Assembly (NCBI GenBank): GCA_021234155.1
Contig: JAJEKV010000052.1
Coordinates: 3,500,197-3,564,196, forward strand
Length of the DNA stretch: 64,000 bases
Reading direction: 5' to 3'
DNA from: Isoetes taiwanensis
Taxonomy: Eukaryota > Streptophyta > Lycopodiopsida > Isoetales > Isoetaceae
Below, in pieces: positions 8,108 to 55,233 of this stretch. Below the pieces are notes generated by a model, which saw nothing but the letters and a program-made list of their open reading frames with translations, did not search any database and was not told the DNA's origin. Each line of letters opens with the position of its first letter. Position 1 is the stretch's first letter. The position numbers were made by a program, and so were the translations under genes.

Positions 8108-8745
8108 CTACGTGGCATGTCGGTGTTGGAGCCTAGGTGGCATGTTGGAGCCCACATGCCATGTTTGAGCCACCTTGGCATGTTGGAGCCTAGGTGGCAT
8201 GTTGGAGCCCGCGTGGCATGTTTGCGGTTAGGTGGCATGTTGGAGCCCGCATGGCATGTTTGAGCCACCTTGGCATGTTTGAGCCTGGGTGGCATGTTGG
8301 AACCTAGGTGGCACATTTGAGCCAACTTGGCATGTTAGAGCCTAGGTGGCATGTGGTGAGCGACCTTGGCTTGTTTGAGCCTAGGTGGCATCTTGTAGCC
8401 TGCGTGGCACGTTTGAGCTACCTTGGCATGTTTGATCCTAGGTGGCATGTTGGAGCCTAGGTGACATGTTTGAGCCACCTTGGCATGTTGGAGCCTAGGT
8501 GGCATGTTGTGAGCCAGCTTGGCTTGTTGGAGCCTAGGTGGCATGTTGTAGCCTGTGTGGCATGTTTGAGTTACCTTGGCATGTTTGAGCCTCTAGATGG
8601 CATGTTGGAGCCCAGGTGACATGTTTGAGCCACCTTGGTATGTTGGAGCCTAGGTGGCATGTTTGAGCCACCTTGGCATGTTGGAGCCCGCGTGGCATGT
8701 TTGAGCCACCTTGGTATGTTGGAACCCCGATGTAGCATGTTTGAG

Positions 8746-15517: not shown

Positions 15518-15519
15518 TA

Positions 15520-17275
15520 CTAGTAATGGTACCCAGCGTTGCTGGGCGTAAGTTGAGAGCCTCTAAATGTTTTGGGCTGCAGTGGGAAAAGCCCTATCCC
15601 TTTCCTTTTCTCTTTCCCTTTTGCTCTATCCTATATTTCACTTTTTCTTATTTTATCTACACTTTTTTTTTTCTTTTCCCGTCTTTCCGTTTTCTTTTGC
15701 TTCTTTTCCCTCTTTCTTTTTCCCGGTAACCTTTTTCCCTTCCCTTTTCCTCCTTTCCCCACCCTTTCCTTCTCCGTTTCTATGCCATTTTTCCTTTCGC
15801 TTCACCTTTTTCCATGCCTCCTCTTTTCCCCATCCTTTTTCCATGGCTTCCCTTTTCCTCAACCTTTTACTCTTTCGTTTTTTTCCGTGCCTATTTTCCC
15901 CTCTTTTCCTCCTTTCCCACCCTTCCCTCTTCTTTTTTCTGGGTGCCCTTTTCTCCCCATGCCTTTTTTACCTTCCCTTTTCCCATCTCTTCAACCTTTC
16001 CCTCTTTTCCTTTTCGCTTCTCTTTTCCCATTTTTCTCTTTTCCTTTTTCCCTTGCCCTCTCTCATTTTTCCCCTTTTTTCTTTCTTTTTTCTTTTCCCA
16101 TGCCTTTTTCCCTTCCCTTTTCCTTTTCCCATTTTTTCCGTGCTTCCCTTTTCCTCTTTTTCCCAGCCTTTTCCTCTTTTTTTCACCCTTTTTCTCTTCC
16201 CCTTTTCCCTTCTTTTCCCCCTTCCCTTTTCTTTTCCTTTTCCCATGTCCTTTTCTCTTCCCCTTCCCCGCTCTCCCGCTTCCCTTCCCTTTTCCCTTTC
16301 CCTTTTTCTTCCGTTCCCTTTTCCTGATGGATTTTTTTTTATTTTTCTCCTTTCATGATCCTTTCCTCGTGCCCTTTTTCCGTCCTTTCCTTTTCGTTTT
16401 CCCATGCCTTTCGCACATTTGTTTTCTCATCTTATTTTCCTATACCTATTTTCCTCTTTTCCCCATCCTTTCTCTCTTCCCCCCCTTTTTTTCCCTTTTC
16501 TTTTTTCCCTTTCACCATTTTTCTCTTCTCATGCCCTTTCCCCCTTTCCTTTTCTTGTGTCCCTTTTTCTCTTAGGTTCCCTTTCCCGCTTTTCCCTTTC
16601 ATTTTTCTTTCTTCTCACTTTCCTTTTTTTCCTTCCCTTTTCCCCATCCCTTTCTTGTTCCCCCTTTTCCCTCCCCTCTTCCTCATTTTCTCAACCTTTC
16701 ACTCTTCCTCTTTTCTCAATGCAATTTTTCCCTTCCTTTTCCCTCTCTCTTTTTCTTTTCCCTTTTGCTTTTTCCATGCCATTTTTTCCTTTTTTTTTTA
16801 AACGCTTCTCTTTTTCTCCCTTTTCTCATGCTCTTTTATTTCCTCCCTTTTTCCCATGCTTTTTTTCTCCTCCCTTTCCCCCTTTCTTCAACTTTTCTCT
16901 CTTTCTTTTTTCCCGTGCCCTTTCCTCTTCCCTTTTCCCTCGTGCCCTTTTCCCAGTTTTCTTTTCCCCCTCCCTGTTTCTTTCTTCTTTCCCTTTTCCT
17001 TTTTTCATGCCTTTTTCTCTTCTCTTATCTCCACCATTTTTCCTTTTCCTTTTCTCCTTTTTCCTGTGCCTTTTTGCCCTTCACATTTCTCTTTTCTCTT
17101 CCCTTTTTCGCCTTCTCCTTTACCCTTTCCCCTTAAAAGATCAAAGAATGACTAATCACGGTGGTGGTAAGTCGTGCAATAAATCTCGGCCTTCAGATGC
17201 ACCCAGATGATCTCGACCATTCAAATTAGGGCTTGATCCAATCCAAGAATTACGGTATAACATTATAATATAAGA
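15520..17275 (-). mobile_element. Second polypyrimidine Helitron abutting the first (1756 bp)
   Basis: The 3' end is at 15520-15523 (CTAG, then GGTACCCAGCGTTGCTGGGC on the plus strand) and the 5' end is at 17275 (TCTTATATTATAATG on the minus strand). Only the two bases TA separate it from the neighbouring Helitron. The body is again purine on the element strand but of different sequence, with interspersed ATG/CATGCC motifs. It is non-autonomous, and the open frames within it are compositional. Confidence 0.9.
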
Positions 17276-34800: not shown

Positions 34801-36911
34801 GCGAAAATAAATTAGGTTTTGCCACCTGGATCCCTAATTCATCTCCGGCACACGCCCAATTTTCGAATTTTAGGAGAAGGTCTAGGTCAAAGGGTTAGCA
34901 TTAGAGCGGTCGGGGCAGCGTTCTGCGGGGCAACCGAGCTGGCACCCTTCCCAAGTCAAACGAGGCCGGGACCTTGCGGGGATCCCTCACAAGAGGGAGA
35001 GTCCAGGACCCGAGGCGGGGATCCAAAAAAGTTCGAGGCAGCCCCTTCTGGCGGCGCTCCCGGGGCTGCGCTAATGACCACCCTCCGGAGCCCGGTTCCC
35101 CTATCCCACCGTTGGATCCTCCGTTAAAGGGGGCCCCTCTTGGGGAAGGTCCAAAAGATTCAGTCGGTCAGGGAGAACTTGTCAAACCGCGGAAGCGTCG
35201 ATGTCGGCCTTGTAGAAACCGCCTTGTTTTGTCGTTCCGGACGCAGGGATGCTCGGAATGGCAAATAGACCTGCCAAATCGTCAGGAATGGCGAAATTAC
35301 CCTAGGGAGCAAGTTACAGCGGCGGTTTTCGCGAAAGAAGGAAACACTCACGCCCTCCACGGCAGCGGTATCGCATGCACATCCTAGGCCAATTGACTAC
35401 GAGTGTGATGGAAGTGAGCTAGCACCGGTGGTCTTCGGCCCACGGAACTTGGTCCCCAGTGGCAATGTCGACGTTTCGAGTCCATTGGCGAGTCAGATCG
35501 CGATTCGGAGAGGGGAGGTCGCCCGTCCGGTCCCGGAGGGCCTTGGGGAGAGGAAATTTGGGGCAAGCAGCCGGAGGGATTTTAGGGTCCGCCTCGTCAA
35601 CACCCAACTCCACTTTAAGACACGGCGCAAAAGGTCCCGACTGATCGACAAGGAGAGGGGCCTCCAAACGTAAACCCCGTGGGTTGCCGGGCTCTAGAAG
35701 GGTTTACGTTTTGGGGGCAAATCTGTCTGGTTGCACTTGGGACTGGCCGAGAAGCAAAGAAAACCCGAATACTGGAGCAAAGGGGAACCGACGGGCGGAG
35801 TTTGGGCCTTTCCTCCTCCGTTGTGGCAAGTAGAAGTCGGGGGCTTTTGCAAATGGCAAGACATTCGTAGAATTCGCAATTAATGTATTGCCGCGCTAAA
35901 ATAAATTCGGTTTTGCGAATTTGGATCCCTAATTCATCTCCAGCACACGGCCCAATTTTCGAATTTTACGGAGAAGGTCTAGGTCAAAGGGTTAGCATTA
36001 GAGCGGTCGGGCAGCCCGTTGAAGGGCAACCGAGCTGGCACCCTTCCCCAAGTCAAGCGAGGCGGGACCTTGCGAGGGGATCCCTCACAAGAGGGGAGAG
36101 TCCGGACCCGGGAGGCGGGATCAAAAAGTTCGAGGCACCCTTCTCGGCGCTCCCCGGGCTGCACGCTAATGACCACCCTCCGGGCGGTGCCCTATCGACC
36201 GTTGGATCCTCCGTTCGGGGGCCCCTCGCCGGGGAAAGGTCCAAAAGATTCCAGACGGTCAGGGGAGATCCTTGTCCGCGCGGAAGTCGATGTCGGCCTT
36301 GTAGAAACCGCCTTGTTTTGTCGTTCGGGCCGGGATGCTCAGGAATGGCAAATAGAACTCCGCCAAATCGGGTAAGAATGCCGAAATTACCCTAGGGAGC
36401 AAGTTACTGCGGACGGTTTTGCGAAGAAGGAAACACTCACGCCCTCCGCGGCGGATATCGCATGCACATCCTAGGCCAATTGACTATTTAGTAAGACACG
36501 CCGCTAGGTCCCTACGAATCGACAAGGAGAGGACCTCCAAACGTAAACCCCGCGGAGTTGCCGGGCTCTAGAAGGGTTTACGTTTTGGGGCCGAAGTCCC
36601 GGTCTGTTGTAGATTGGAACGTGGTCGAAGAAAGCTTGGCCGGAAACGCGATAGCAAAGCGGGGAACCGACGGAACGGAGTTTGGACCGTCCTCCTCCCG
36701 ATGTGGCAATCGGGAGTCTGGGGCTGGTAAATGGCAACAACACACGATTAAATTCGTAATTAATGCATTGCACGAAAATAAATTCTGATTTTTTGCCAGC
36801 TGGATCCCTAATTCATCTCCAGCACACGGCCCAATTTTCGGAATTTTTGGAGAAGGTCTAGGTCAAAGGGTTAGCATTAGAACCGTCGGGGCAGCCCGTT
36901 GCGAGGCAACC
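28821..36911. repeat. Tandem array of a 1.1-kb repeat, about 7.5 copies
   Basis: The landmark AAACGTAAACCC...GGGTTTACGTTT recurs at 29030, 30147, 31260, 32365, 33471, 34576, 35666 and 36539, so the period is 1090-1117 bp and the last step is shortened to 873. Other fixed landmarks are GAGTCCATTGGCGAGTC, CGCAATTAATGCATTGC, GGATCCCTAATTCATCTCC, CCCTAGGGAGCAAGTTACAC and CATGCACATCCTAGGCCAAT. The copies differ mostly by 1-4-base indels. There is no long shared reading frame; each copy gives a different set of frames, which argues against coding. The array ends inside a unit at CCGAGCTG (36916), where the larger duplicated unit begins. Confidence 0.9.
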
Positions 36912-37399
36912 GAGCTGATTTGGAAGATTTGGAAGATGCAGTTGACTTCAAGCCACAAAGAAACATAAATTTAGTGGTACGCTTCTATCGATCGAGGGTT
37001 GGAGAAAAATCCAAGCCGATTTGTCCATCTAAACTTCTAAGAATGTGCATTTGAAAGATTTAGAACATGGAAGTGTCCCATTTGTAAGAGCTACAGGAGA
37101 GTCCAAACCACAAATAATCTCAGAAGCTGGTTCTACCAGTCCAAGTCGAAATGTCGCAGAAACCTCAGGCTCCGAAATGGCAAATCGAACTGAAGAAGGC
37201 GATATCCAACAGAAGAATGCAAAATATCTTCAAGAATCCTTCAGATCATGTTCATGCATATGTATCAATGCTAGATTGTACCCAGAGAAAATATAACAAT
37301 GTACAAAACATAGGTTTATTGAACAAAAAGATCACTTGAACAATTCAAAGATACTCCTCCCGAGCTTGGCTTATGGTTTCTATCGTGAAGTCCTCCACT

Positions 37400-37730
37400 T
37401 GTCCATCCCCTTTGAACCATAGCTCCATGTCAGTATGTCCGCGTGACCATGCATATGTCGACGCTAGTATCATGTTAATCTTTGTTTTTCTGTGGGTGCT
37501 TCCAAACCCCTCGACCATCTTTTCAAAAGCACCCTCATCATGCTAGGCAGCTCAGCGGTTCCTAGCAATTTGGTCGCCTTCTCACCAATCACATACTTCT
37601 TTAACACTTTCATCCAGATGGATCGTTGTTTCATAGTCCTCATCTTCGAAGTGGAGGAGGGGTTCACGGAGGATTCCCTTCCTTCTCATGCCCTCGACGG
37701 CTCCTACACCAAGCTATAGATTAGAAAATA
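37400..37730 (-). pseudogene. Unknown coding-like remnant, present in both copies
   Basis: On the minus strand a frame reads VLKKYVIGEKATKLLGTAEL, then MMRVLLKRWSRGLEAPTE. With frame shifts it continues to MELWFKGDGQVEDFTIETIS. The same text is readable at about 48370-48750 in copy 2. The composition looks protein-like, but I do not recognise the family. It may be an N- or C-terminal part of a transposon protein. Confidence 0.3.
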
Positions 37731-38309
37731 GATAAAATACAATAAAGTGTATAAACTACAGAGTGTAGCCTTACTTGTGAAGACAGGTTCCATATCTCTC
37801 TGCTCTTGAATCCTCATCTCCTCCTGAATCTGGTTCAAGCGTCGAAGCATACCTGGGCATATGCATGCTACACCCTGCCATTTTTGGAACCTGCCGAAGT
37901 ACCTGCACTAGGTACTTTTGGATTGGGTACTATTTTCTTGTTCTTTTGTTCAAAACTAATTCAAAAGTTCAATATAAAATGTCAAAAGCATATCAATATT
38001 CAAGGTTAAGATAGAGACAATACTATTGGAGGCCAAAATGAATGCATTCAATTTAACATTTGTAGTTATTGAGATATTATAAAAGTACCCAGTACCCAGT
38101 GTTGGGTACTTTTTTAGGTAGTTTTATGGTTCCTAAATGGTACTTTTTTTGATAGGGTGTAGCATGCTTATGCCCACCTTCCATGGCCATGTATCCCAAA
38201 AGCAATAAAGAAAAAACTCTCACAATAACTGCAATGAAAAACTAGGATCCGAGGATCGTTCGCAATACTCAAATCATAAAAGAAATGGGAAAAATGAAAG
38301 CCGGCCGAT

Positions 38310-38430
38310 GACTTTTAAAGAACAGAGACGTCATTTTAAGACGTATAGACGTCGTTTAACGACGTTTAAAGGTCGTTTAACGACGTCTATAACGACGTTC
38401 ACGGCTATAACGACGCGTCTGAGAAATTTG
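38310..38430. repeat. ACGACGTC palindromic repeats (copy 1)
   Basis: GACGTCGTTTAACGACGTTTAAAGGTCGTTTAACGACGTC and following AACGACGT units are closely related to the CACTA subterminal motifs at 12830-13310 and 22427-22525. The counterpart at 48970-49075 is more damaged. Confidence 0.65.
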
Positions 38431-38568
38431 TTTTGTTTTCGGATATCTTTGAGATGCCATATATATTGCCCTATTAGTCCTCGGCTTCTCCGCGCCCTCC
38501 GTCCCCTCACGCTCTGCGCCCTCGGCTTCCCTCCCTCCTCCTCCTTGGACTCCTCACCTACATCCGCC

Positions 38569-39064
38569 ATGGCCGCTTCTCCGATGCATGCCCGCTTTTG
38601 ATGCCGCACCGGAAGGCGTCGCGGCGGCCTGGAGCACCGAATCGCCTGCCTCTGAGTGGCTAGAGGCTAATCTAACCCAAGAAAGGCCGGAGTTCAAGCA
38701 AGCCATGACAAAGCTGCGCGGATAGGGGCAAGAAAGACCTCGCCGCATTATTGGGAGGCCGGAACCTTCCCTCAATCAAAGCTTCGAAGTGCTGAAGAAA
38801 TGCATGGTGAGCTTCGTTGTGCTTGGCCCGTTATGCTAGAGGATAGGGGCCTTTGGGAAGGGAAACATTTTTTGAAGCCCTACTTTCAAAAGTTGCACCA
38901 GACCAACGAGGGGCATGCGGGAAGTGCTCATTACATGAATTCCTTGGGGAAACGAGACACCACGCGGAGGGGCTTGATTCCATGCCGAGGCTTGTTCTCG
39001 ACGGGGGTGGAGGAAATCAATCGTCGAGCACCTTCGAGCCTGCGAGTGGATCACACCGGATGCT
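38569..39064 (+). pseudogene. Unknown gene remnant with intact start region (copy 1)
   Basis: ATCCGCCATGGCC provides a good start at 38569 (MAASPMHAR), and copy 2 begins the same way at 49202 (MASSPMHARLMSALQ). Downstream, pieces such as EWLEANLTQERPEFKQAMTKL and a final HRMLIYTARCAIAS can be followed through several frames in both copies. A stop lies just before the AT-rich 3' end. No known domain is seen. It sits 150 bp downstream of the ACGACGTC repeats, a place where CACTA elements usually start a gene. Confidence 0.3.
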
Positions 39065-39427
39065 GATATATACCGCTAGATGTGCAATCGCATCCACTTT
39101 GTTTTGTGTATTTGAATTGTGTATGGGTTTTTATATGAATTTTGTATTTTGAAGGAATACATATATGATTTTTTGTATATGAATCTTGCATTTTGAAGGA
39201 ATCTTCACATTTTATGATTAATTAAACATAAAAGCGTAATCAATCAGATGTAGAACTGCCCTGACGGGCTTTGCTGAAGCCATAGGTCTATACTAGGATG
39301 CCAATTAACTTGGCATAAATGTCTATGATAACTCAAGTTGCAATACTAATGTTGCCTAATATGGTTTGTAGTATACACAAATTAAGATGCCAAAGTATTT
39401 TTCTTATTCATATGTGGGAAGAAAATA
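39065..39427. other. AT-rich 3' flank before the Helitron
   Basis: Noncoding and repetitive (TTTTGTATATGAATCTTGCATTTTGAAGGA twice, split here in words only), matching 49700-50065 in copy 2. It ends at the A|T insertion site of the Helitron. Confidence 0.5.
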
Positions 39428-42400
39428 TCTTATATTATAATGTTTTAGCCATTATGTCTTCAATCAAACCCTAATTTAGATAGTTGAGATCGCCCGATTG
39501 CATTAAGGCGAGATTTATCGCGACAACTTCTCACCACCGTGATTGGCCATGCTCTCGATCTCTTAAGAGGAAAAAACCGGCTGAGAAAAGGGCAAAGTGA
39601 GAGGCAAAAAGGCAGTAAAAGGGAAAAGCCGAGGCGGGGAAAAGGAAAGGGAAAAGAGCACGAAAAAGGGAAAGAAAAAAGAAAGGGAGAAAAAGGAAGG
39701 TAAAAAGGACACTATGAAAAGGAAAAAGGGGGAAAGGGTGAGGACAGAATAAAAGAGAAAAAGAAAAGGGAAGGGAGGAAAAGGAAGAAAAATAGCAACT
39801 TTGAAAAAAGGTGAAGACTTTAAAGGGTGTGGAAGGGAAAAAGGGGAAGATAAGAATGATGGAGAGAAGGAAAAAAAGGGCATGGAAAAATAGAAAGGGA
39901 AAAAAAAGGAGGCAAAAAGGGAAAAGGGCATGAGGGAAAAGGGAGAGGGAAATGAGAGAGAGGAAGGAGAAAGTGGCACTCGAGAAGAGGAAAGGTGTGA
40001 GGAAAGGAAAAAAAAAAAGGAGAAAAGGGAAAAGTGAAAAGCAAAAGAGAAAGAAAAAAAAACATGGAATAAAAGAGGAAAAAGGAAAAAGGGGAAGAGG
40101 GTGGGAAAAGGAGGAAAAGGGCATGTGAAAAGGTGGAAAAAATAGAATGGAAAAAGGTATGGGAAAATGGAAAGGAAAAGAGAGAAGGAAAAAAGTTTGG
40201 AAAAGAGAAAAGGGCATGGAAAAAGAGAAAAGGATGAAAAAAGAAGGAAAAGGAAAAAGGAAATGGAGGCGAAAGAAAAAAAAAAAAAGAACCAGGGGAA
40301 TAAGGAGGGAAAATAGAAAAAAGAGGAAAGGAAAAAGAACCTGAAAAAACTGGAAAGGAAGAGGGAAAGGGTGAGGAAAGGGAAAAAGAGCATCTATAGG
40401 GAAAGGAAAAGAAAGAAAAAAGGGAAGAGGGTAGGGGAAAGGCGGAAGAAAAGGCAAGTAAAAAAAAAAGTGGAAAAAAGTGGAAAAAAAAGGGAATGGG
40501 AAAAATACATGGGAAAAAGGAAAAGGAAAAAAGGGGAAAAAAGAAAAAGGAAAAAGGAAAGGGAAAGGAAAGGGAAAGAGAAAAGGAAGGGGAAGGAAAG
40601 AGGAAAAAGGGCACGGGAAAAAGGAAGGAATTGGGGAAATGATGAAAAAAAAGAAGGAAAGGGAAAAAGAAAAAAGGGAAAGGGGGAAGGAAAGGAAAAA
40701 GGCATGAAAAAAAAAAGAAGAAGAAAATGGGAAAAAAAAAGAGACATTAGCTAAAAAAGAAGAAGAGGGTGAGGAGAGGAAGAAAAAAAAAAAAAAAGAT
40801 GGGGGAAAAGGGAATGCAAAAAGGACATGAAAAGGGAAGGGAAAAGAGAAAAGAAAAAATGGGAAAAGGAAAAAAAAGAGCATGAGAAAAAATGGGAAGG
40901 GTGGAGAAAGGTGAAAAGGAAGGAAAAAACCGTCAAAAAGGGAAAGGGAAAGGGAAAAATGAGAAGGAGAAAAAGGAAGGAAAAGAGAGGGGGAGAAGAG
41001 GGTAAAAAGAAAAGAAAAAAAAAGAAAGAAGGAGAAAAGTAAATGTGCGGGAAAAATAAGAAAAGGGAAAAAAAAGAAAGTGTGTAAGAAAAACGAGGAA
41101 AATGATAGGGAAGGTTATCAAATGCACAAAACCTCTTATAGCCTAGATATGATGAACTTGGTTAATGAGTCGAAATTTGAATAGGTTTCCATCCACAAAT
41201 ATTTCCCAACATTTGCCCATATCAAGCCCTAATTTGAATGGCCGGGGATCATCTAATTGCATCAAAGCGAGATTTATTGCAAGACTTTTTGACCCACTAT
41301 GATTAGTCATGTTTTGATGTCTTGAGGAGAGGAACGTGAAAGGATAAAAGGCATGATAAAAAGGTGGAAGGGGTGAGGAAAGGGAGGAAAAACGAGGGGA
41401 AAAAAAGAAAAAAGAAGCAAAGGGTGGAAAAAAAGGAGGAAAAAGAAGGGAGAAAGGGTAATAGAAAAAAAGGGGTGGGTAAAAGAGAAGGGAAAAGCGC
41501 ATGGAAAAAGGGAAAAAAAAAAAAAAGGAAGAAGGAAAGGGAGCCCGGAAAAAAAAAGGCACCAAAAAAAAAGGGAAAAGGAAAAATGAAAAAGAAGAAG
41601 GGGTGAAAAGCACGGAAAAAGGGAAAAAGCGGGAAAAGGGTGAAGAAAGGGGAAAAGGATAAGTGAAAAAAAGCATGGAAAAAAGGAAGAAAAAAGAAGG
41701 TGGAAAAAAGAGGAAAAAAGGGTGAGAAGAGGAAAAGGAAAAAAAATGGCATGGAAGAAGGAAAAGAAAAAGGAGGGAAAAGGAGGACTAAAGGGAAGGG
41801 AAAGGAGGCGCCGAAGGGGAAAAAGGAAACAAGAAAAGGGTGGGGGAGAAGGAATAGAAAGAGAGCATGGGAAAATGGAGAAGAGAAAGGAAAATAAAAA
41901 AAGGGAGCTGCAAAGGTGGAAAGGAACATGGGAAAAGGGCATGAGGGAAAGGGGAGAGAGACAAGGGGAAAAGGGAAGGGGAAAGAGGGATTACAAGAAA
42001 AAAGGAAAGAAAGAAGAAAAGGAAAAGTGAAAAAAAAAAGCATGGAAAAAAGGGCAAGAGAAAAAAAAAAAAAAGGGGGAGGGGAAGAGAGAAAGGGTGG
42101 GAAAAACTAGGAAAAAGGCTGAGGAAAAAGGCAAAGAGGAAAAAAGAGATGTTGAAAAGGGCATGGAAAGAAGGAAGTGAAGAGAAAATAGAAGAAGGGA
42201 AAAGGAAAATTAAAAAGGCCACGACAAAAAGGAGAAGGAAAAGGGTTGGAAATGAGGGACAAAAAGTCCATCAAAAAAGGGATAGGGATAGAGAGCGGGA
42301 AAGGGCAAAGAGGAGGGGGAAAAGGAAGTGAAGGGGGGGGCATGGAAAAAGGAAAGGAAAAGGGGAAGAGTGAACCGTGTGAAAGAGGAAAAGGAGAGAA

Positions 42401-43112
42401 AAATGGCATGGAAAAAAGAAAAAAAAGAAAAGGGGGCGAAAGGGCATTGGGAAAGGGGAAGACGAGAAAAGGGAAAGGGTTGAGAGAGGAGAAAAAAGGA
42501 AAAGATGGGGATCGGGGAAGGGCAAAAGGGAACAAGAAAAGGATGGGAAGAAAGGAAGGGAAAAGAGAAAGGGAAAGGAAAGAAAAGGACAGATGAAAAG
42601 GGTGAAAGCTAACCTTGAAAAAAGGGCAAGAGAAAAGGGAAAGAGGGAAATGGAAAAAAAAGGAAGGCTTAAAGGTCACAAGAAAAAGGAGGAAGAGAGA
42701 AAGATGAAGAAAGGCAAAAAAGGAAGCAAAAAAGGAGAGGAAAAGGGGAAGAAAGAAAGGGCTCAAAAAAGGAAAATCCAGACAAGAGAAAAAGGAAAAG
42801 AGGAAAATGCAAGATTATAACCCCAAGAGTCAAAAAGAAAATGAAGGGGAAAAAGGAAAAAAGTTTATCAAGAAAACTCGAAGTGAAAAGAGGAAAAAAA
42901 AAAAAAGAAAAAAAAGAAACTGCGACGAGGAAAAAGGAAAAAGCAAAAGTATAAAAAGCGGGGTATAGCAAATGGCAAAAGGAAAGAGAAACGGTCAACT
43001 ACTTTTAACAATGGAGTAATTTCTAGGTTATTCATGCTTGCCTCTCTCATCACCGTAGTGTATCATTTATAGGTGAGCTTATGCCCGTCCAAGAACTGGC
43101 ACCGCTCTCTAG
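39428..43112 (+). mobile_element. 3685-bp polypurine Helitron with proven empty site
   Basis: The plus strand starts TCTTATATTATAATGTTTTAG at 39428 and ends CTAG at 43109-43112, after a decayed hairpin region (TGCCCGTCC...GGCACC). Copy 2 has AAATA|TAATCATAATAAAG (50065|50066) uninterrupted, and here AAATA (39427) and TAATCATAATAAAG (43113) flank the element. The insertion is thus exactly between A and T without target duplication. The body is 3.4 kb of G/A, interrupted at 41130-41330 by a second copy of the Helitron leader sequence (ATCAAGCCCTAATTTGAATGG). It is therefore probably two related elements fused or nested. Long K/G/E/R or F/P/L/S frames here are artefacts of composition. Confidence 0.9.
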
Positions 43113-45850
43113 TAATCATAATAAAGTACGAAGGTTCAATCGATGGTAGTCTTCTATCATGACACAACGCCACCCCCCCTAACCCTCCCTCCCGACCGCC
43201 CATCTCTTCTTCTTCACCTTCAAATATACGTGGAGCGAGCCTTTACATGGAACTAATTAACCACCACCGATCTTGCAAAGGATCCGAACTTAAGGTGACC
43301 TACAAACCTCTATTACATTAGTTCCTTTGTTAATGACATATATAAATTCCTTATTGCATCCAAGTAAACATACTTGTTCACATTGCTCAACCTCACGAAA
43401 AGTGTGTCCTGACCATTTATACCGGTTTTAGCTGAATCTAGTGAATATTGTGCCACCGTGATCTTTTGCGTGGTCGCGGGCATGAGCACCAAGACACACA
43501 AGAATCAAACCATTCTCGCATCAAACAACATTGTTTTGAATGCACTACCACATCAACCTCCAAGATAGTCTTTATAGTACCAATCCATTCCAACATTGCC
43601 CTCGATTGGGTTTGGGTCTGCACTACCGGTCAAGAAACCAGACTAAACTTTGCTGATATACCACAATCATAAGCGCTTTGCCATGATCCACACTTTGTCG
43701 CCGAAAAGTGAGCACCGAAGACCATATTGATGCATATGAATTATACTAAAGTAAAGGAACAAATGTTCAAAATAACAATCTAAACTCGCGGAATTATATG
43801 CTATTAAGTTGCACTTACAAATAGTGACACGCTTTTAGCATATGCAAATTCTTCACTAGAAACATGTTCCACACGTTGCCTTGCCATCTCTAGTTGTTCG
43901 AGCAGCCATTTATTGTTTATCTCACTTGGCGGGACCCCTAGATGATCCGAAGTGGTTGTTTACGCATTCTTTTGTCGATAGCGCCTTCTCTCCTCTCTCT
44001 TTATTTTTCTTCCTCGTTTTTTTTATCCATTTCTCCATGGGAGTGGAGTTGTAGATGAGAAACTTATTGACTTTTGGTCATTCTTCTAGTGTGAACAATT
44101 TCTTCTCGTGTGGTCTTCCTTGGGAACTTCTCCAATTATAGTTGGAGGTCTTCATGGGTCCATAATCGAGCATTGGGGTGTAGATCGCCAAGAACTCTGG
44201 GTGACATAGAATAATGACTCTCGTGGCTAACCAACCCTCTACCATGCAACCCTCCTGCCTTGCCTTCATCGCTGTAAGTCCTTAGGAGGACCTTCAAAGC
44301 GTTCTATAAAACATCCATCTAGGATTTGTTGTGCTTTTCCCCGCAAGCTCTACTTCGCCCACTAAATGCACTAGTAAAGTGAGTTTGTATGTCCGTAAAA
44401 ACTTGTTGGGAATTTTTTTCTCTAGCATACAACATGCCTCAACGAACCTTTAGTTCGTGAGATGTCTGCAATTTAATTTGCCTGTATCTCCCTTCCTTGT
44501 AATCCATCTAAATATCATTTAAGAAAAAAAAGTTAAGTGGAGAGTTCAGCAAAGAAAGTGTTTTCTAAACCGTATGAACCCGAAAACTTCCTCGATAGGA
44601 GACATATTGCATGTAGTGGACCGGCTACGGTGGTTCACCGTAGTCAATAGGCATAAACTGCAACATCTTATGCCAATCATGAGGATTTCAACCCGCTTAA
44701 CTCCCTTCGTTAGAGAAACAATTACGCTAACTTAATGCATATATCCCCGTCTGAGTCTTTATTGCCTTGACGCTTCTCGAACGGGTTTCATACATTTTCT
44801 AGGCACGATCCAATCCACTTGTGGCCTTATTCCTTCTTGACATTTAACCATGCTTTAGATTTTGATCCGCTTCTTGTAGATCTTCATCGCCGCGATTCGG
44901 TGGTCCTTACGTCCGTTGACATGCTTCCAAATAGGCCAAACGTTTTTTAAAGATGTGCATGGGATCAAAGAAGATGATGGATCTTCAATTCATCCAATAG
45001 GGTAGGAAGAAGGATGCTTTCCACTTCATTCCCTTAACCTTATTTCCTTCAAATTTCAAGATCCCACATGTTACCCCAATCTCTCATTGTCAACCTTTTG
45101 GGAGGCTCTTCATTGCAAATGTTTTTCTCTTGGACCTAATGATCGGGTCGATTTTTCCATTGGCGATATCTCTTGAAGTTTGCATAGACATTTTTGTGCA
45201 ATCTGGTTATTGACCGTGAGAGTTCAATGCTCAAACCCCACAAGTGACATGCCGCATATCCGGACAATTTGAGTCCAGAGTTCATACAAACCAGGCCAAT
45301 CGCCGTTGTCCACATTAAGATTGCTCTCAAGGTAAATCTTCGCTCAAGACGGTTCTCTTGAGACATCGTAAACTTCAATACCTTCACTCCACAATGTCAA
45401 AAGCTCATCAATAACTATTTTCAGATATGGATCTAGACTTTCCGGCTTCTTCGGGTCCACCGAACTAATAGTACTACCATTAAAATGGCTAGTCTTCATG
45501 AGTAACCACTGGTAAATTATAGTTGATCAACACTCACGCCAAGCACCACGCGGCCGATGACGCCCATTATGATTAACACCATCAGCTTGCCAACCCTAAC
45601 TGGAGATTTCGTGGGCTCTTCCAAATTCGCCATGTTTTCATCAATATTTCCCATTGTTTGCAGTCACTAACCACGCGAGTACATTGTCACCGGACGATTA
45701 GCTGCACACCAACCCCATGAGCCGGCTTTCAGAGATTCACATCAAACAATAGCCTTATGCGAGGGATCAATGGAAAAGTAGCGAATCACCTTCATCGGAC
45801 TGCCTTTCCTTTTGGCATCCGTGATTGTACCTAGAGGCACCACATTTAGG
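43113..45850 (-). pseudogene. CACTA (TNP2-type) transposase remnant, copy 1
   Basis: Minus-strand fragments appear in the order of plant TNP2 transposases, reading down from 45850. First comes the CGASRYNHGC zinc-finger-like piece at the truncated end, then TLRAILMWTT...LSGYAACHL (45340-45240), corresponding to the ILMWTINDFPAYGNLSGY block of Transposase_21. RQEGCMVEGWLATRVIILC (44265-44210) resembles the EG-IAEGYIAEE-LTFC block of DUF4218. A DUF4216-like IGTIKTILEVD segment lies near 43590. Many frameshifts and stops make it non-functional. This enzyme would cut and join CACTA termini. The N-terminus is cut off by the 1.1-kb array. The A|T at 43520/43521 is the empty site of the Helitron in copy 2. 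Confidence 0.7.
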
Positions 45851-47918
45851 GGCAATGTCGCACGCTTCCGAAGTCCATCGCAGAGTCGATCGCTGACCGA
45901 GGGGAGGTCGGCCTGGCCCCGCCCCGTGGCCTGGGAGAGGGAAATTTGGGGCAAGCAGCCCTGAGGGATTTTAGGGTCCGCCTCGGGCGCTGCCAACACC
46001 CCAACTCCATTTCAAAAGATTACCTGCCGCAAAGGTCCCTACGACCGACTGAGAGGGTCCAAACGTGAAACCCCGCGGGTTGCTGTGCTCTAGAAGGGTT
46101 TACGCTTTGGGGCCGAACTCGCCCGTTGCACTTGGGACCTCGCCGAGAAGCAAGAGCCGAGGAATACGGAGCAAGGGGAACTGACGAGCGGAGTTTGGGC
46201 CTTCCCTCCTTCCGCTGTGGCAAGTAGAAGTCTGGGGCTTTTGCTGGCAAGACATTCAGAATTCGCACTAATGCATTGCACTAAAATAAATCTCGTTTTT
46301 GCCACCGGATCCCTAATTCATCTCCAGCAAAGACACGGCCCAATTTTTCGAATTTCTGGAGAAGGTCTAGGTCAAAGGGTTAGCATTAGAATCCGGTGGG
46401 CAGCCCGCTGCGTGTGGCAACCGAAGCCGCACCCTTCCCCAAGTCAAACGAGGCTGTGATCTTGCAGGATCCTCACAAGAGGGGAGAGTCCTGACCCCAG
46501 GAGGCTGGGATCCAAAAGTTCCCCAGGCAGCCCCCGGCAGCCAAGCCCCGGCCGTCACGCTTTTAACGACCACCTTCCCGGAGTCCTGCCTCCCTATCCG
46601 ACCGTTGATCCTCCGTCAGGGCCCCTCGGAAGGTCCAAAAGATTCCAGACGGGTCCGAGAACTTGTCAAAATCACGGGCGCCCGATGTATGCTTTGTGCA
46701 GAAAACCGCAAGATCTGCTTTTGTCGTCGCACCGGGATGTCCTAATGGCAAATAGACTCGCAAATCGGCCCCGGATGGCGGTAAATCCCTAGGGAGCAAG
46801 TTACACGGCCGGTTTTGCTAAAGAAGGAAACACTCACGCCCACGACAAGAGATCCCGCGATGCACATCCTAGGCCAATCGACTACGAAACTTGGTGATGG
46901 AAGTGAGCTACTTTGGCATTCTTCCGAGAGGGAGTTCCGGGTGGTCTGGGAGAGGGAAATTTGGGCCACCGGAACTTGGCCAACACCCCAACTCCACTTC
47001 AAGACCTACAAGGTGGCAAGGGTCGAAACGTGCCTCTAGAAGGGAGTCCATTGGCGCCTGAATCCTTGATCCCCGTGGCAATCTGCGATCAGTCCATTAC
47101 AGCCAACCGGAGGGAGGGGAGGTTGCCCGGCTTCCCGTGGCCTTGGGGAGAGGGAAATTTGGGGCAATTTTCCTGAGGGATTTTAGTGTCCAAGGCCTGC
47201 TCAACACCCCAACTCCACTTCAAGACATGGGCGCAAAGTCCCTACGGACTGACAAGGAGAGGGCCTCCTAAACGTAAACCCCGGTGGGTTGCCGTGCTCT
47301 AGAAGGGTTTACGCTTTGGGGCCGAGTCCCCGGTCTTCCGCCACTAACTTGGTTTCCGTGAGCAATTAATACGCAGAGTCCATTGGCAGAGCCAAATCGT
47401 GGTTCCCGAGAGGGGAGGTTGCCCGCTCTTCCCGTGGCCTTAGGGAGAGGAAATTGGGGGAGTTAGCCCGGAGGGGATTTTAGGGTCCAAGGCCCAAGGC
47501 CAACACCCTAACTCCACTTCAAGACACGCCGCCAGGGTCCCCTCAACCGACAAGGAGAGGGCTCCAAACGAACCCCTGAGCTGCCGTGCTCTAGAAGGGT
47601 TTACGCTTTGGGGCCTTAAGTCCTAGTCTCGTTGGGCGTTGGAACGGCGGGTGGAAGCCGCGCCGAGAACGATAGCAAGGGGAACCGATTTGAACGAAGT
47701 TTGACCGCCCTCCCCACATGGTGGCACTAGAAGTCTGGGGGCTTTTGGCAACACACGATTAAATTAATTAATGCATTGCACTAAAATAAATTTGATTTTG
47801 GCACCGATCGGGCAATTCATCTCCAAAGACACGCCCAATTTCGGAATTTTGAGAAGGTCTAGGCCAAAGGGTTAGCATTAGGAATCGTGGGGCAGCCCGC
47901 TAATAGGCAACCGAGCTG
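45851..47918. repeat. 1.1-kb repeat, about two further copies
   Basis: The same unit as in 28821-36911: hairpin landmarks at 46061, 47270 and 47567, so one step of 1209 bp and one shortened to 297 bp by internal deletion. It starts at GGCAATGTCGCACGC, equivalent to GGCAATGTCGACGTT in the main array, and ends at the same CCGAGCTG junction as the main array. This junction identity shows that array end and large unit were duplicated together. Confidence 0.85.
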
Positions 47919-48369
47919 ATTTTAAAAGATTTGAAGATGCAGCTTGACTTCAAGTTACAAAGAAACATAAATTTAGTGGTCGCTTCATCAGTCGGGTTGG
48001 AGAAAAAATCCAAGCCGATCGGGTCCATCACAAACTTCTAAGAATGTGCATTTGAAAGATTTAGAACATGGAAGTGTCCCATTTGTAAGAGCTGGGGAGA
48101 GTCCAAACCACAAATAATCTCGGAAAATTTGGTTCCAAAGGTCAAGTCGAAATGTCGCTGAAACCTCGAGGCTCCGAAATGGCGTCTTAACCCGAAGAAG
48201 GCGATATCCAACGTAAGAATGCAAAATATCTTCAAGAATCCTTGAGGATCATGTTCATGCATATGTATCAATGCTAGATTGTACCCAAGAGAAAAATATA
48301 ACAATGTACAAAACATAGTTTATTGAACAAAAGATCACTTTGAAACAATTCAAAGATACTCCTCCGAGG

Positions 48370-48750
48370 CTTGGCTTATGGTTTCTATCGCGGAAGTCCT
48401 CCATTTGTCCATCCCTTTGAACCATAGCTCCATGTCAAGTATGTCAAGGCGTCAACCATGCATATCGTCGCCGCTAGTATCATGTTAATGCCGTTTTTTC
48501 CCATGGGTGCTTCCAAACCCCACCATCTTTTCAAGAAAGCACCCTCATCATGCTAGGGTACTCATCGGTTCCTAGCAATTTGGCCCGATACCCTTCACCA
48601 CCAATCACATACTTCTTTAACACTTTCATCCGATGGATCGTTGTTTCCATAGTCCTCATCTTCGAAATGGAGGAGGGGGGTTCACGGAGATTCCCTTCCT
48701 TCTCATGCCCTCGATGGCTCTACACCAAGCTATAGATTAGAAAAATAGAT
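48370..48750 (-). pseudogene. Unknown coding-like remnant, copy 2
   Basis: This is the counterpart of 37400-37730, with extra indels. The same minus-strand peptide pieces are recoverable only across frames. Confidence 0.25.
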
Positions 48751-48969
48751 AAAATACAATAAAGTGTATAAACTGAGTGTAGCCTTACTTCAGAAGACAG
48801 TTCCATATCTCTCCGCTCTTGAATCCTCATCTCCTCCCGACCGTTCAAGCCGGCTTATACCTTCCATGGCCATGTATCCCAAAGAAAAAAACTCACCCAA
48901 TGAAAACTAGGATCGAGGATCGCTCGCAATACTCAAATCATAAATGGGAAAAATGAAAGGCTTCATGAC

Positions 48970-49080
48970 TTTTGCGCTGTCGAGATCGCCGCTTTAAGAT
49001 GATATCGCCGCTTAACGACGCTTTAAAGGTCGTCGCCTATAACGACGCTCACGGGCTATAACGACGCTGCATCGAAATTT
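48970..49080. repeat. ACGACG repeats, copy 2
   Basis: AACGACGCTTTAAAGGTCGTCG and ATAACGACGCTCACGGGC correspond to 38340-38420 but with several C/G insertions. Confidence 0.55.
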
Positions 49081-49201
49081 GTTTGCCTTCGTATCGAGAT
49101 GCCATATAGTGATGTTCCCATTAGTCCTCTCCAAATTTTCTCCGCCCCTTCCGCCCTCCTCCTCCTCCCTTCGGGCTCTGAGCTCCTCACCTACATCCGC
49201 C

Positions 49202-49690
49202 ATGGCCAGCTCCCCGATGCATGCCCGCTTGATGTCAGCACTGCAGGCCGCAAGTGGGGTGCTACCGATAACTCTAACGCCTTCCACCGAGTGGCTGAGA
49301 TCTAATCCTAACCCAAGAAAGGGGCTCTGAGTTCGCCACATGCCGGATAGGGTAAGGAAAGACTCCGCCAGACATCAGAGCGAACCTTCCTTCACATGTT
49401 CGAGTGCCCTAAGAAATGATGGTGTGCTCATGAAGGCCGGCCCGTGATGCTAGAGGATAGGGCCTTTGGGAAGGGAAACATTTGTCAAAGCCCCACTTTC
49501 AAAAGTTGCAACTGCACCAACCAGGGCATGGAAGTGCTCGTGACATGAATTCCCTTTGGGGAAATGCATTAACCACTCTAGGCTTGATCCGCTTCGAGGC
49601 TTGTCTTCGACGGTGGAGGAAATCACCGCCGAAAGCACCTTCGAAAGCCCAAGCGAGTGGATCAAGCACCGGATGCTTAGATATATACCG
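49202..49690 (+). pseudogene. Unknown gene remnant, copy 2
   Basis: It begins MASSPMHARLMSALQAAS at 49202 in good start context, runs to a stop at about 49331, and is then readable in other frames to IKHRMLRYIPLDAQSHP near 49690. See the copy at 38569. It is unrecognised. Confidence 0.3.
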
Positions 49691-50473
49691 CTAGATGCGC
49701 AATCGCATCCACTTTTGTTTTGTGTATTTGAATTGTGTATGGGCTTTTTATATGAATTTTGTATTTTGAAGGAAATATATATGATTTTTGTATATGAATC
49801 TTGCATTTTGAAGGGACCTTCACATTTTATGATTAATTAAACATAAAGCCGTTGCAATTAACTCCAGATGTAGAACTCCGCCTCGGGATCGGGCCGCTGC
49901 GCTTCATTAAGGTATAGGTTCATAATTTCAGGGATGCCAATTAACTTGGCATAAACGTCTATGATAACTTCGGGTTGCAATACTAATGTTGCCTAATATG
50001 GTTTGTAGTATACACAAATTCAAGATGCCAAAGTATTTTTCTTATTCATATGTGGGAAGAAAATATAATCATAATAAAGTAATGAAGGTTCAATCGATGG
50101 TAGTCTTCTATCATGACAAGGTCTTCGCCCCCAACCTCCTATTCGACCGGGCCCATCTCTCTTCTTCACCTTCAACATGCTGGGCGGAGCGAGCCTTACA
50201 TGGAACTACTTAACCACCAATCGATCTTGCAAAGGATCCGAACGGCTGCGACCTATAAAAACATCTATTACATTAGTTCCTTTGTTAATGACATATATAA
50301 ATTTATTGCATCAAGTAAACATATTTGTTCACATTGCTCAACCCTCACGAAAGTGTGTCTTGACTACTTCCATACCGACGAGTTGAATCTAGTGAATGTG
50401 AATATGCGCCAGGATCTTGGTGATCATTGGCATGAGCACCCTGATACACACAAAGATCAAACCATCTCTAAGA
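49691..50473. other. AT-rich flank and transposase 3' region
   Basis: It corresponds to 39065-39427 joined to 43113-43520 in copy 1, without the Helitron. The intact A|T site is at 50065/50066. No separate gene is present; the part after 50100 is the C-terminal region of the minus-strand transposase remnant. Confidence 0.5.
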
Positions 50474-52368
50474 TCTTATATTATAATGTTAGGTAAATGG
50501 ATCAAGACCCTCTAAATCTGGACGACGAGGATTTGATCGGACTAAATGGTGGAGGATGATGTGCTTGTTCAACTAAAAATCTCCCCATCTTGACTATGGC
50601 TTCAATATGAAAGGGAAAAGGGAAAGGGAAAGGAAAAGGGAAAGGGAAAGGAAAGGAAAGGGAAAAGCAAAGGAAAGGAAAAGGGGAAGGGAAAAGGAAA
50701 AACGATGAAAGGAAAAGGGAAAAGGAAACTAAAAAAGGGAAGGGAAAAGGAAAACGATGAAAGGGAAAGGAAAAGGGAAAAACGATGAAAGGGAAAAAAG
50801 GTAAAAGGAAAAGGGGAAGGGAAAGGAAAAAGATGAAAGGGAAAAGGGAAACTAAAAGGGAAAAAGGGAAAAAGGAAAAGGAAAAGGGGATCGAAAAGGG
50901 AAACGATGAAAGGGAAACCGGTGCTGAAACGGAAAAAGGAAAGGAAAAGGAAAAGGAAAAATGATGAAAGGGAAAGGGAAAAGGAAAGGAAAAGGGGAAG
51001 GAAAAGGAAAACGATGAAAGGAAAAAGGAAAAGGGAAAATGAAAAGGAAAAGGGAAGGGAAAAGGAAAACGATGAAAGGGAAAAAAGGAAAAGGGAAAAA
51101 GGAAGAGGGAAGGAAAAAAAGGAACAACGAGGGAAAGGGAAAAGGGAAAAGGAAAGGAAAAGGAAAAGGAAAAGGAATAAAAGAAAGGTAAGAGGAATGG
51201 AAAGATAAAAAAAAGAAAAATAGAAAAAAAAGGAATAGAATAAGCGAGGGGAAAGGAACGGAAAAGAGCAATCACGAAGGGTAAGAAGTAAAGGTGAGAA
51301 AAGGAGAAAAGGTAAGGGAAAATAAGAAAAGGTTGCAAAAGTCTATGGAAAAAGAAAAGCAAAAAGGAAAAGAGAGGGGAAAAGGGAAAAAAGAGATCTT
51401 GGGAAAGTGGGAGCGCAGAGAAAGAGAAAAAAAGGAAAGGGCGAAAAAAAGGGAAAAGAGGAAGGGTGAAGAAAGAGAAAAGGAAAGCAAAAAAGAGCAT
51501 CGAGAAAAAGGAAGAGGGAAAAGAATGGAAAATGAGGAAAAGGTGGGGGAAAGTAGAATAGACAAAGGGTAGGAGCAAGGAATAGGAAAAGAGGAAAAGA
51601 GGGGAAGGAGAAAAGGGCACGAAAAAAAAAGAGGGAAAAGGGTGAGGAAAAAAAAAAGAAAGGAAAAGAGTATAGAAGGAAAGTTAAAAACAAACAAAAG
51701 AAGGAGAAAGTGGAAAGGGGAAAAAGGGGAAAGAGGATGGGGAAAAGAAGGAAAAAAAGGGTACATAAAAAGATTGAGAAAAGGAATGGAAAAGAGGCAT
51801 AGCGAAAACGAAAAGGAACGAAAAGGGAAAATGTAAAGGAAGGGAAAGAGAAAGGAAAGGAAAAAAAGGGAACATCGCGAAAGCAAAAGGGTGGGGAATG
51901 TATGAAAAGGGAAATGGAAAGTTGAAAGGAAAAAAGGAAGCCGGAAAAGGAGAAGGGAAAACAAAAGAGCATGAGGAAAAGAGGAGAGAGAAATGGGAAA
52001 GAGATGGGAAAAAACCCAGTGATCAAGAGGAAGGCAGTGGGGAAAAAGAAGAAAAGGGCACATGAAAAGGTAAGCAAAAGAGCAGAAAAAAATGCATAAT
52101 GAAAGCAGGAAGGTAAAAAAGGAAAAGGAAAAGGAAGAGGAAGGGGAAAAAGGAAGGAAAGAGGTAAAGGGAAAAATGGGAAGAGCGGGGAAGATAAAAG
52201 AAAGGGAAAAAAAAGGCGATAAGAAAAAAGAGAAAGAAAAAAAAAGGGGAAGGGGAAAAAGGGAAGGCAAAGGGAGGGGAGAAGGGGTTAGAAAAAAAAA
52301 AGGGAGAATAAAAAAGAAAGAAATTAAAGGTTCTAATTTATGCCAAACAAGGCCGGTACCATTACTAG
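50474..52368 (+). mobile_element. 1895-bp polypurine Helitron with proven empty site
   Basis: The element starts TCTTATATTATAATGTTAGG at 50474 and ends TACCATTACTAG at 52368, after a damaged hairpin (GCCAAACAAGGCCGG). The flanks are ...CTAAGA (50473) and TCAAACAACATTG (52369). Copy 1 reads ATTCTCGCA|TCAAACAACATTG without interruption at 43520/43521, an empty site with insertion between A and T. Read in reverse, the element is a diverged copy of 13596-15517, including matching end sequences (AAATTAAAGGTTCTAATTTA) and many GATGAAAGGGAAA units. Confidence 0.9.
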
Positions 52369-55233
52369 TCAAACAACATTGTTTTGAATACTCCAATCGG
52401 CATCAACCTCCATGATAGTCTTTATAGTACCAATCCATTCCAACATTGCCTCGATTGGGTTTGGTCTCGCGACTACCAGTCCCGGCAAAACATTGCTAAA
52501 CTTTGGCCGATATACCACAATCATAAGTGCGTTTACCCATGATCCACACTTTGTCGCCGAAGTGAGCACCCGAAGACCATATTGATGCATATGAATTATA
52601 CTACAAAAGTAAAGGAACAAATGTTCAAAATAACGAAACGAAACTCGTGAATTATATGCTATTAAGTTGCACTTACAAATAGTGACACGCCTTTAGCATA
52701 TGCAAAATTCTTCGCTAGGAAACATGTTCATGCGTTGCCTTGCCATCTCTAGTTGTTCGGCAAACCATTTATTGTTTATCTCACTTGGCGGGACCCCTAG
52801 ATGATCCGAAGTGGTTGTTTGCGATTCTTTTTGTCGATAAGCGTCTTCTCCTCATCTCTTTTTTTTTTTCTTCCTCGTGATTTTTATCCATTTCTCCATG
52901 GGATTGGAGTTGTAGATGAGAAACTTATTGACTTTTGCACCATTTCTTCTAGTGTGAACAATTTCTTCATGGGTCTTCCTTCTGAACTTCTCCATTATAA
53001 TTGGAGGGTCTTCATCTGGTCCATACAATCGTGGAGCATTAGTGTAGATCGCCAAGAACTCCGGTGACATAGAATAATGACTCTCGTGCTAACCAACCCC
53101 GGGCCATGCAACCCTCCGCCTTGCCTTCGACGTCTGAAAGTCCTTGAGGACCTTCGTAAAAGCGCTTCTATAAAAACATCCATCTAGGATTTGTTGTGCC
53201 TCGGTAAGCTCTACCAAATCCACTAAATGCACTAGTAAGTGAGTTTGTATGTCCGTAAAACTTGTTGGGAATTCTTTCTAGCATACAACATGCCCTCAAC
53301 AACCTTAGTTCGCGATGTCCACCAATTTCATTTTGTATCATCTCCTTCCTGTAATCCATCTAAATATCATTTAAGAAAAAAAGTTAAGTGAGAGTTCAGC
53401 ATCGAAAGTGTTTTCTAACCGGTACTTAGACCCGAAAACTCGATAGGAGACATATTGCATGTAGTGGACCGTCGGGCGCAGACGACCCTCTAACAATAGG
53501 CATAAATAAACCGCAAACATCTTATGCCAATCATGAGATTTCAACCCGCTTTAACTCCCGCCGCGAGAAACACCACGCTAACGATGCATATCCCCCGTCT
53601 GAGTCTTTATTGCCTTGATCGCCGAACGGGTTTCATACATTTTCTAGGCACGATCCATCCATTTTGTGGCCTTATTCCTTCTTTCGACATTTAACCATGT
53701 TTTAGATTTTGATCCACTTCTTGTAGATCTTCGTCGTGTCGTGATCCGTGTCCTTACGTCAGGTGACATGCTTCCAAATAGACACCAAACGCTTTTAAAG
53801 ATGTGCATGGGATCACAAGAAGATGATGGATCTTCAATTGGCCCAATAGGGTAGAAGGAAGAAGGATGCTTCCACTTCATTCCCTTAACCTTATTTCCTT
53901 CAAATGCAAGATCCACATGTTACCCCAATCTCTCATTGTCAACCTTTTGGGAGGCTCTTCGCTGCAATGTTTTTCTCTTTGACCTAACGTGATCGGTCGA
54001 TTTTCCATTGGTGCATATCTCTTAAAGTTTGCATGTATATTTTTGTGCAATGCCGCTTGGCCGTGGCGAGTTCAACTGCTCAAACCCACACAAGTGACAT
54101 GCCGCATATCCGGACACTTGAGTCCAGAGTTCATACAAAACCAAAGCTAATCGCCACGTTGTCCACATTAAGATTGTTTCATGTAATCTTCGTTCAAAGA
54201 CGGATTCCTCTTGAGACATCGTGAACCCCCAATACCTTCACTCCACAATGTCAAAAGCTCATCAATAACTATATTCGGATATGGATCTAGACTCTTCCTA
54301 GCTTCTTTCTCGGGTCCTGAACTAATAGTACTACCATTAAATGGCTAGTCTTCATGAGTAACCACTCTGGTAAATTATAGTTGATCAACACTATCGCTGT
54401 TGACCACGCTGATTGATCGCCCATAAGGATTAACACCATCCGTTGCCAACCCTAATATGAGATTTCGTGGGCTCTTCCAAATCTCGCCATGTTTCATCAA
54501 TATGCTTCCATTGCTTGCGCCACTAACCACGGGAGTACATTGTTACCGACGACATGCGACACCAACCCATGAGCCGCCAGAGATTCACATCGAAAACAAT
54601 AGTCTTGGCGCGAGGGATCAAATGGAAAGTAGCGAACCACCTTCTTATCTGGATCTGCTCTTTCCCTTGGCATCCGCGATTGTACCTAGAGGCACCACAT
54701 TTAGGCATGTTTCTGGTTCTTGTAGATGCCATCCTGATAATATACCATGCAATCATTTGGACAAGTTGAATCTTATGGTAGCCTAAACCAAAGAGTCGCC
54801 AATATATTTTTATTTCCCGGTGACTTTTGGGCATAGTGTTCCTTTGTGGGAGTATTTTCTCTTGCAATAACCTCAGATAAAACAGACTTTTACGTATACA
54901 TTCAACTACAAATTCAATAAGTCAAGTGATTGCAATTGTACTTACTCTAACAAAAGCCGCAACAACCGCATTGCTCCATTTGAATTTGGCTTTGAAGATT
55001 TTAATATCAATAAAGATGTCGTCAATCTAGATATGTTGCAGACCGATATAATGCTTTATGCGCCTCCTCCAAAAACGTGCGTGATCTTCATGACCAATGT
55101 TAGAGTATTTTATATCGTCATCTAGGTCGTTGTCGAAGATTGGGCCACCAAATGCATCTAACATGTCGGCTATGGGTTCCTCAACTTCCATGAAGTCAGC
55201 CCATAGGGGCATTGTCATCATCTTCCACAACAA
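52369..55233 (-). pseudogene. CACTA (TNP2-type) transposase remnant, copy 2, with N-terminus
   Basis: Reading down from 55233, the first piece is ADMLDAFGG...DDDIKYSN. It is followed by FKWSNAVVAAF (about 54990), then ILPQRNTMPKSHREI and FGLGYHKIQL (54860-54770), MPKCGASRYN (about 54700) and ATFHLIPRAKTIV (about 54620). These are the successive conserved blocks of the TNP2 N-terminal part. Next come ILMWTTW (54190), HIFKSVW-LFGSMSPD (53810), STRVIILCH (53085) and a DUF4216-like EWIGTIKTIMEVD (52440). Numerous frame breaks rule out function as read. The Helitron at 50474-52368 separates this from the last codons. The first block (55233-54705) has no counterpart in copy 1. Confidence 0.75.

Follow-up and report, generated by a model that had tools for sequence, protein, structure and literature searches.

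The window, i.e. the whole stretch of 64,000 nucleotides of Isoetes taiwanensis DNA that was analysed, contains two neighbouring copies of a CACTA-type repeat, and each of them is interrupted by a Helitron at a position where the other is continuous. The features are collected in Table 1, in which H1 and H2 designate the Helitrons of copies 1 and 2, respectively.

Table 1. Features of the window (position 1 is its first letter).
Feature	Position	Strand	Remarks
H3, polypurine Helitron of the H2 subfamily	13596..15517	-	3' hairpin still folding, 7-bp stem
H4, polypurine Helitron head-to-tail with H3	15520..17275	-	2-bp spacer (CTAG TA TCTT)
CACTA-type copy 1, left part	36493..39427	-	matches 47521-50065 and dispersed copies
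H1, composite non-autonomous Helitron, polypurine body	39428..43112	+	3685 bp; fills alignment gap; two further full-length copies, L053 and L054
H1 5' end, TCTTATATTATAATGTT	39428..39444	+	preceded by A
H1 fusion joint (by alignment)	41216..41224	+	unit 1 halts in left arm of 3' hairpin (TGCCCA); unit 2 begins at relatives' base 29
H1 3' end, degraded hairpin and CTAG, then T	43075..43112	+	alignment with L047-L049; fold
CACTA-type copy 1, right part; H2 empty site 43520/43521	43113..45850	-	tnp2 remnant 45347-45595; DUF4218 remnant 44147-44518
One 1.1-kb tandem unit between copies 1 and 2	45851..46923		resembles units of 28821-36486
CACTA-type copy 2, left part; H1 empty site 50065/50066	47521..50473	-	
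H2, non-autonomous Helitron, polypurine body, TC...CTAG	50474..52368	+	1895 bp; relatives H3 (window) and L042
CACTA-type copy 2, right part	52369..55225	-	tnp2 remnant 54186-54455; DUF4218 remnant 53017-53370

The two host copies can be aligned from about 36493-45850 with about 47521-54705, wider limits than those first proposed, and dispersed relatives keep matching copy 2 up to 55225. In the global alignment, the identity is 81.6% over 2475 aligned bases on the left, 77.5% over 400 between the two insertion sites and 83.3% over 2275 on the right. At the H1 junctions (marked by slashes) copy 1 reads AAATA/TCTTATATT...CTCTAG/TAATCATAAT and copy 2 AAATA/TAATCATAAT; at greater length, AAATA in copy 1 is followed by TCTTATATTATAATGTT and, at the end of the insert, by CTCTCTAG before TAATCATAAT, the corresponding stretch of copy 2 being AAATATAATCATAAT. 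At the H2 junctions copy 2 reads AAGA/TCTTATATT...TACTAG/TCAAAC and copy 1 CGCA/TCAAAC; H2 extends from TCTTATATTATAATGTT to ATTACTAG, immediately before TCAAAC, where copy 1 is uninterrupted. Placed by alignment alone, the gaps slide by 1 base (H1) and 2 bases (H2). The bases just left of the H2 site differ between the copies (...TCTCGCA in copy 1, ...CTCTAAGA in copy 2), so the left edge of H2 rests on its TC end and on the right edge, and the exact frame of both insertions is settled by the genome-wide evidence on the family ends given below. Within that slide, the gaps coincide with the TC and CTAG ends of H1 and H2. The reciprocal insertions announced by the original prediction are thus present at the bases and with the lengths it gave, and the two empty sites, with the flanks of the ends throughout the genome, show that both elements entered between A and T and duplicated no target bases. 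H1 and H2 are Helitrons, and each host copy displays the other's empty site.

As the prediction had also held, no other genome is needed for this conclusion; further empty sites occur within the same one. The H1 site is uninterrupted in 39/39 other long matches of the segment 48898-50473 among the best 40 of 363 candidates; the 45 rows of that search comprise copy 2 itself, these 39, which cross the site, and five short rows ending before it. The H2 site carries no insert in 39/39 other matches of the segment 43113-45850 (best 40 of 417 candidates); apart from copy 1, 37 of the scored matches are full-length and two are partial. Both sites were inspected in seven dispersed host copies, of which six rank with the best-scoring, and neither site is filled in any of the seven. 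Such match lists are ranked by score, which favours uninterrupted copies, and insert-bearing ones would be missed; they therefore establish that many empty copies exist and say nothing against filled ones.

The host repeat was assigned from its dispersed relatives, which carry Transposase_21/tnp2 (E = 2.5e-26) and DUF4218 (E = 8.1e-7) sequences. Their tnp2 fragment matches both window copies on the minus strand (E = 3.8e-22 and 3.3e-16), as does their DUF4218 fragment (E = 3.9e-16 and 1.1e-25), and the repeat is for these reasons of CACTA type. In Pfam, tnp2 was not recovered with four peptide fragments taken from this region of three relatives, but it was with other fragments. A scan for CACTA patterns returned none in 17 kb around the dispersed copy on contig C1007 and one unconvincing match in 27000-58000 of the window, and the element ends were not located. 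About seven 1.1-kb tandem units occupy 28821-36486, and similar units lie upstream of the C1007 copy; the units seem, from this shared layout, to travel with the family. Downstream of the latter copy (L032, joined coordinates ~13616-16063, minus strand) are LINE-type retrotransposon remnants with endonuclease and reverse transcriptase. Another relative (L025, 5202-5444, minus strand) has a SET-domain remnant (E = 7.1e-6) beside its tnp2 remnants, outside the part matched by the window, which is possibly a captured gene piece. A minisatellite of 19/38-bp units is present at 8124-8745 of the window.

The Helitron ends were then followed through the 1.66-Gb genome. The 5' 17-mer TCTTATATTATAATGTT has 3212 exact occurrences, 2836 of them after A; among the 376 others, 149 follow CTAG. 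The common 3' end of the family, GGGCACCATTACTAG, occurs 2964 times and is followed by T in 2945 cases (control for the form before T: 1), and the H2-type 3' end, GGTACCATTACTAG, 496 times (control: 7). Read backwards as controls, the 17-mer and the 3' 15-mer were each matched only once (1), and these counts are therefore not due to chance. Ten family copies were read over 6 kb: all ten begin after A, six have the family hairpin and CTAG end within this length and four show none there; as the scan demanded T after CTAG, it gives no evidence on the T flank. The end sequences were not found in the literature. At 27299-27313 (minus strand) the window carries a family-like 5' end with one mismatch, TCCTATATTATAATG; the sequence that follows is not polypurine and resembles, by eye, locus L021.

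The two Helitrons were expected to define the exact ends of their family. This is correct for the 5' 17-mer, common to H1 and H2, whereas their last 30 bases agree at only 9 positions (ungapped) and both 3' hairpins are damaged. With z = -5.25, the common family 3' end folds into a stem of 8 bp; z is -3.84 for the end of L047/L049 type and -2.15 for that of H3; the hairpin of H1 is weak (z = -1.82, with 11/200 shuffles folding as well) and that of H2 has z = 0.21 (109/200). Roughly the final 150 bp of H1, as far as the hairpin, recur in L047, L048 and L049, which terminate with CTAG, a result that discards a newly arisen H1 3' end; on the alignment, this end looks like a damaged version of theirs. 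A 16-mer of the H1 3' end was rejected as a family marker, its sole other match in the genome (contig C930) being a chance one, followed by A and devoid of 5' end and purine body.

Both Helitrons are non-autonomous, and a relative encoding RepHel was sought. The genome has 1813 candidate RepHel matches, the best 150 of which were scored. Seven loci were examined; in one an exact 17-mer, after A, lies at most 5 kb upstream, and in the other six none was found within that distance. The element at C919:193851 begins with the 17-mer after A, runs over 4992 bp to GGGCACCGTTACTAG, the 3' end with one mismatch, followed by T, and encodes Helitron_like_N (E = 5.8e-62) and PIF1 helicase (E = 3.9e-22) domains on separate open pieces, its coding region being broken into three open pieces of more than 150 aa.

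H1 had been described as a 3685-bp Helitron, a view that is incomplete: judging from its alignments, it consists of two fused Helitron units, present in three places, with the inner joint of 3' and 5' ends missing. From 41221 it matches the 5' part of family members starting at about base 34-42 (base 29, at 41220, in the closest relatives), and the bases before the joint align with the terminal region of a polypurine member, the match stopping 23 bp short of its 3' end. Compared with a direct CTAG/TC joint, about 51 bp are absent, among them CTAG, the 5' end of unit 2 and the right arm of the hairpin, and no hairpin folds at the joint. In a search with the joint-spanning sequence, the whole joint was recovered in 2 of 39 other scored places (best of 1403 candidates), both on the contig of H1. 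These elements, L053 (3684 bp) and L054 (3750 bp), both lie between A and T, run from TC to CTAG and have one mismatch within the 5' 17-mer; they are 98.45% identical to each other and 86.99% and 87.45% identical, respectively, to H1. The three composites are located at ~3.29, 3.54 and 3.63 Mb, and their flanks are mutually unrelated over the 119-526 bases compared; the two units have therefore most likely been mobilized together. L048 and L049 are single-unit relatives of the second half of H1; L047 corresponds to the 3' portion of L053 and does not count as a separate copy.

The direct joint CTAG/TCTTATATTATAATGTT occurs 149 times in the genome (control: 0). Four such places, with seven joints in all, were read. 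In five joints the two neighbours are copies of one unit, alike along most of the shorter neighbour (99.0%, 95.5%, 93.5%, 89.5% and 85.5% identity); of the remaining two, one pair shares just 102 bp and the other has no detected match. Given these five same-unit joints and two between unlike elements, such joints may plausibly form as concatemers or when an element inserts at the 3' end of a resident one. Arrays of the same unit are consistent with a rolling-circle mechanism and do not prove it. At L045, units of 3181 bp are joined head-to-tail at CTAG/TC and are 99% identical over 2450 columns; this array is probably a recent concatemer.

Taken together, these results favour, with a probability of about 0.88, a reading in which H1 and H2 are non-autonomous Helitrons that entered neighbouring CACTA-type members (~11 kb apart from start to start) separately, each between A and T and with no duplication of the target, H1 having most likely arisen from a head-to-tail pair by loss of the ~51-bp joint and then moved as one. 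Formation of the H1 pair at its own locus, by a second Helitron joining the first and decay of the joint in place, might be expected from the abundance of head-to-tail neighbours, i.e. the 149 exact joints and, in the window, H3/H4. The identical fused joint of L053 and L054, within different flanks, makes it very unlikely; since the joint is shared, the fusion is older than at least two of the three insertions, unless H1 was the source of both others. We regard as the least probable alternative of all that duplicated sequence or a noisy consensus in the assembly created the filled and empty states. Private substitutions in the left, middle and right segments reach 7.0%, 15.7% and 6.7% in copy 1 and 13.6%, 15.0% and 9.3% in copy 2, as opposed to 0.0-4.0% in seven dispersed host copies, the counts in the right segment, for indels as for substitutions, covering ~1400 of 2300 sites because three of the seven relatives end there; they amount to 11.7% in H1 and 11.1% in H2 versus 1.9-5.9% in the relatives of H2 (H3 and the two L042 units). 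Indels are likewise raised, with 19-44 per kb in the window host copies against 3-18 in their relatives and 20-22 in H1 and H2 against 2-13 in Helitron relatives. These excesses could be taken as signs of a noisy consensus, but copies that are 17% apart are no plain assembly duplicate, the indel:substitution ratios in the window (0.15-0.49) are not above those of the relatives (0.20-3.00), and the ends of H1 and H2 agree with thousands of genome copies. An excess of C>T changes is usual for methylated plant repeats; all nine host copies have clumped differences (25-48% adjacent) and a low share of C>T plus G>A (23-41%), features which are common to all and so not peculiar to the window. The raised divergence may stem from errors in the sequence, from the alignment or from genuinely rapid change. 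The abnormal divergence of the window copies precludes the derivation of any age, and dating by this means was discarded.

The two host copies had been presented as the products of a duplication; they are indeed related, but both belong to a high-copy dispersed tnp2/CACTA family and a local event is not needed to account for them. A tandem duplication of one member, with later entry of the Helitrons, is a possibility to which we give less than even weight. The copies have the same orientation, lie 1.7 kb apart and share the 1.1-kb unit type beside both; furthermore, at 107 of 3924 compared sites both copies depart from the majority of the dispersed members, where independent change would give 33, and at 51 of these they carry the same letter. 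They are, however, only 83.0% alike, while the seven dispersed copies are 88.2-89.6% identical to copy 1 and 85.0-86.6% to copy 2, and the same body with 1.1-kb units upstream is found at C1007, so that this layout travels with the family. The best tree leaves copies 1 and 2 unjoined, with supports of only 31-65. A topology uniting the two cannot be rejected (p-AU = 0.231), and a flat statement that they are not a duplication pair was dropped on that account. Whatever caused their split, each Helitron insertion postdates it. The dating originally proposed stands to this extent; it is relative only, to a split of which duplication is one possible cause.

On the strand that begins with TC, the purine content is 84% for H1 and 87% for H2 over the whole length and ~90% across most of the body. 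Sampled at bases 250-649 after the 5' end, 21/51 family members (15/40, 6/10 and 0/1) are at least 80% purine on this strand and none is at least 80% pyrimidine, two being intermediate (65% and 74%); the members were drawn from the first-listed contigs and are related, so the sample is neither random nor independent. Scaled to the genome, it suggests roughly 900-1800 polypurine Helitrons. The minus strand of these bodies has long open frames, which would be a by-product of absent stop codons. A long purine-rich stretch at 61899-63300 of the window is in part similar to H1 (81% over 559 columns); no family 5' end was found nearby within 3 mismatches. Among the papers listed for this subject, none looks like a report of kilobase polypurine Helitrons, judged by titles, abstract openings and counts; PMC6417741, judged in the same way, pairs a Helitron with GA-rich sequence in the context of fly dosage compensation. 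The strand-fixed body, present in about two fifths of the sampled members, calls for an explanation and is testable. One could imagine, as a rather improbable conjecture, that the order of a thousand ~90%-purine Helitrons (~1.7-3.7 kb where measured, with the purines on the transferred strand in 21/21 purine-rich members sampled) keep this body because it aids transposition, for instance by easier strand separation, triplex or RNA-DNA hybrids, and that double units arise by erasure of the inner terminator.

The ends, the empty sites, the copy number of the family, the RepHel-encoding element with matching ends and the three composites in different flanks were observed directly, and they can be arranged in the following scheme. 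RepHel supplied by related elements would nick at the 5' TC; the top strand would be peeled off, halted at the 3' hairpin and CTAG, and joined into an AT target. In the case of H1, the ~51-bp deletion at the joint of two head-to-tail Helitrons would have removed the terminator of unit 1, after which RepHel would read through to the 3' end of unit 2 and the double unit would move as one, giving three copies. The 149 direct joints are possible precursors of such a fusion. A keyword search of the literature for Helitron read-through and terminators as a joint topic returned nothing. As reciprocal empty sites, the two insertions exemplify cleanly something already known. The addition to knowledge is the composite: here, in nature, two joined Helitrons have lost the terminator between them and are found as one double unit in three places, which fits the read-through model.

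Among known systems, the host repeat resembles CACTA (tnp2) transposons by its tnp2 and DUF4218 remnants; it differs from them in that no CACTA terminal repeats were found in the stretches scanned, that tandem units of 1.1 kb adjoin the body and that, in one relative, a SET-domain remnant lies beyond it. For the Helitrons, the sections consulted of the work on maize HelA-type elements (Du et al. 2008, PMC2267711) describe the same TC 5' end, the same flanking A and T, the use of vacant sites to prove insertion and a 16-20 bp palindrome 10-15 bp before CTAG, as well as one head-to-tail pair with a G/T joint. In contrast, the end sequences differ, and the elements described here stand out by polypurine bodies of kilobase length, by direct head-to-tail joints in 149 places and by the fusion of two units into one. 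The Helitron kind is known, and the composite together with the strand-fixed polypurine body is a variant worth following. According to the portions consulted of the studies on Helraiser and Helibat1 (PMC4778049, PMC5876387), these elements also possess a hairpin terminator and form circles with a precise 3'-5' joint, and loss of the Helraiser hairpin leads to read-through to a downstream terminator (PMC4778049). In the read-through described there, flanking host DNA is captured or new 3' ends are created, whereas in H1 it would continue into a second, like unit.
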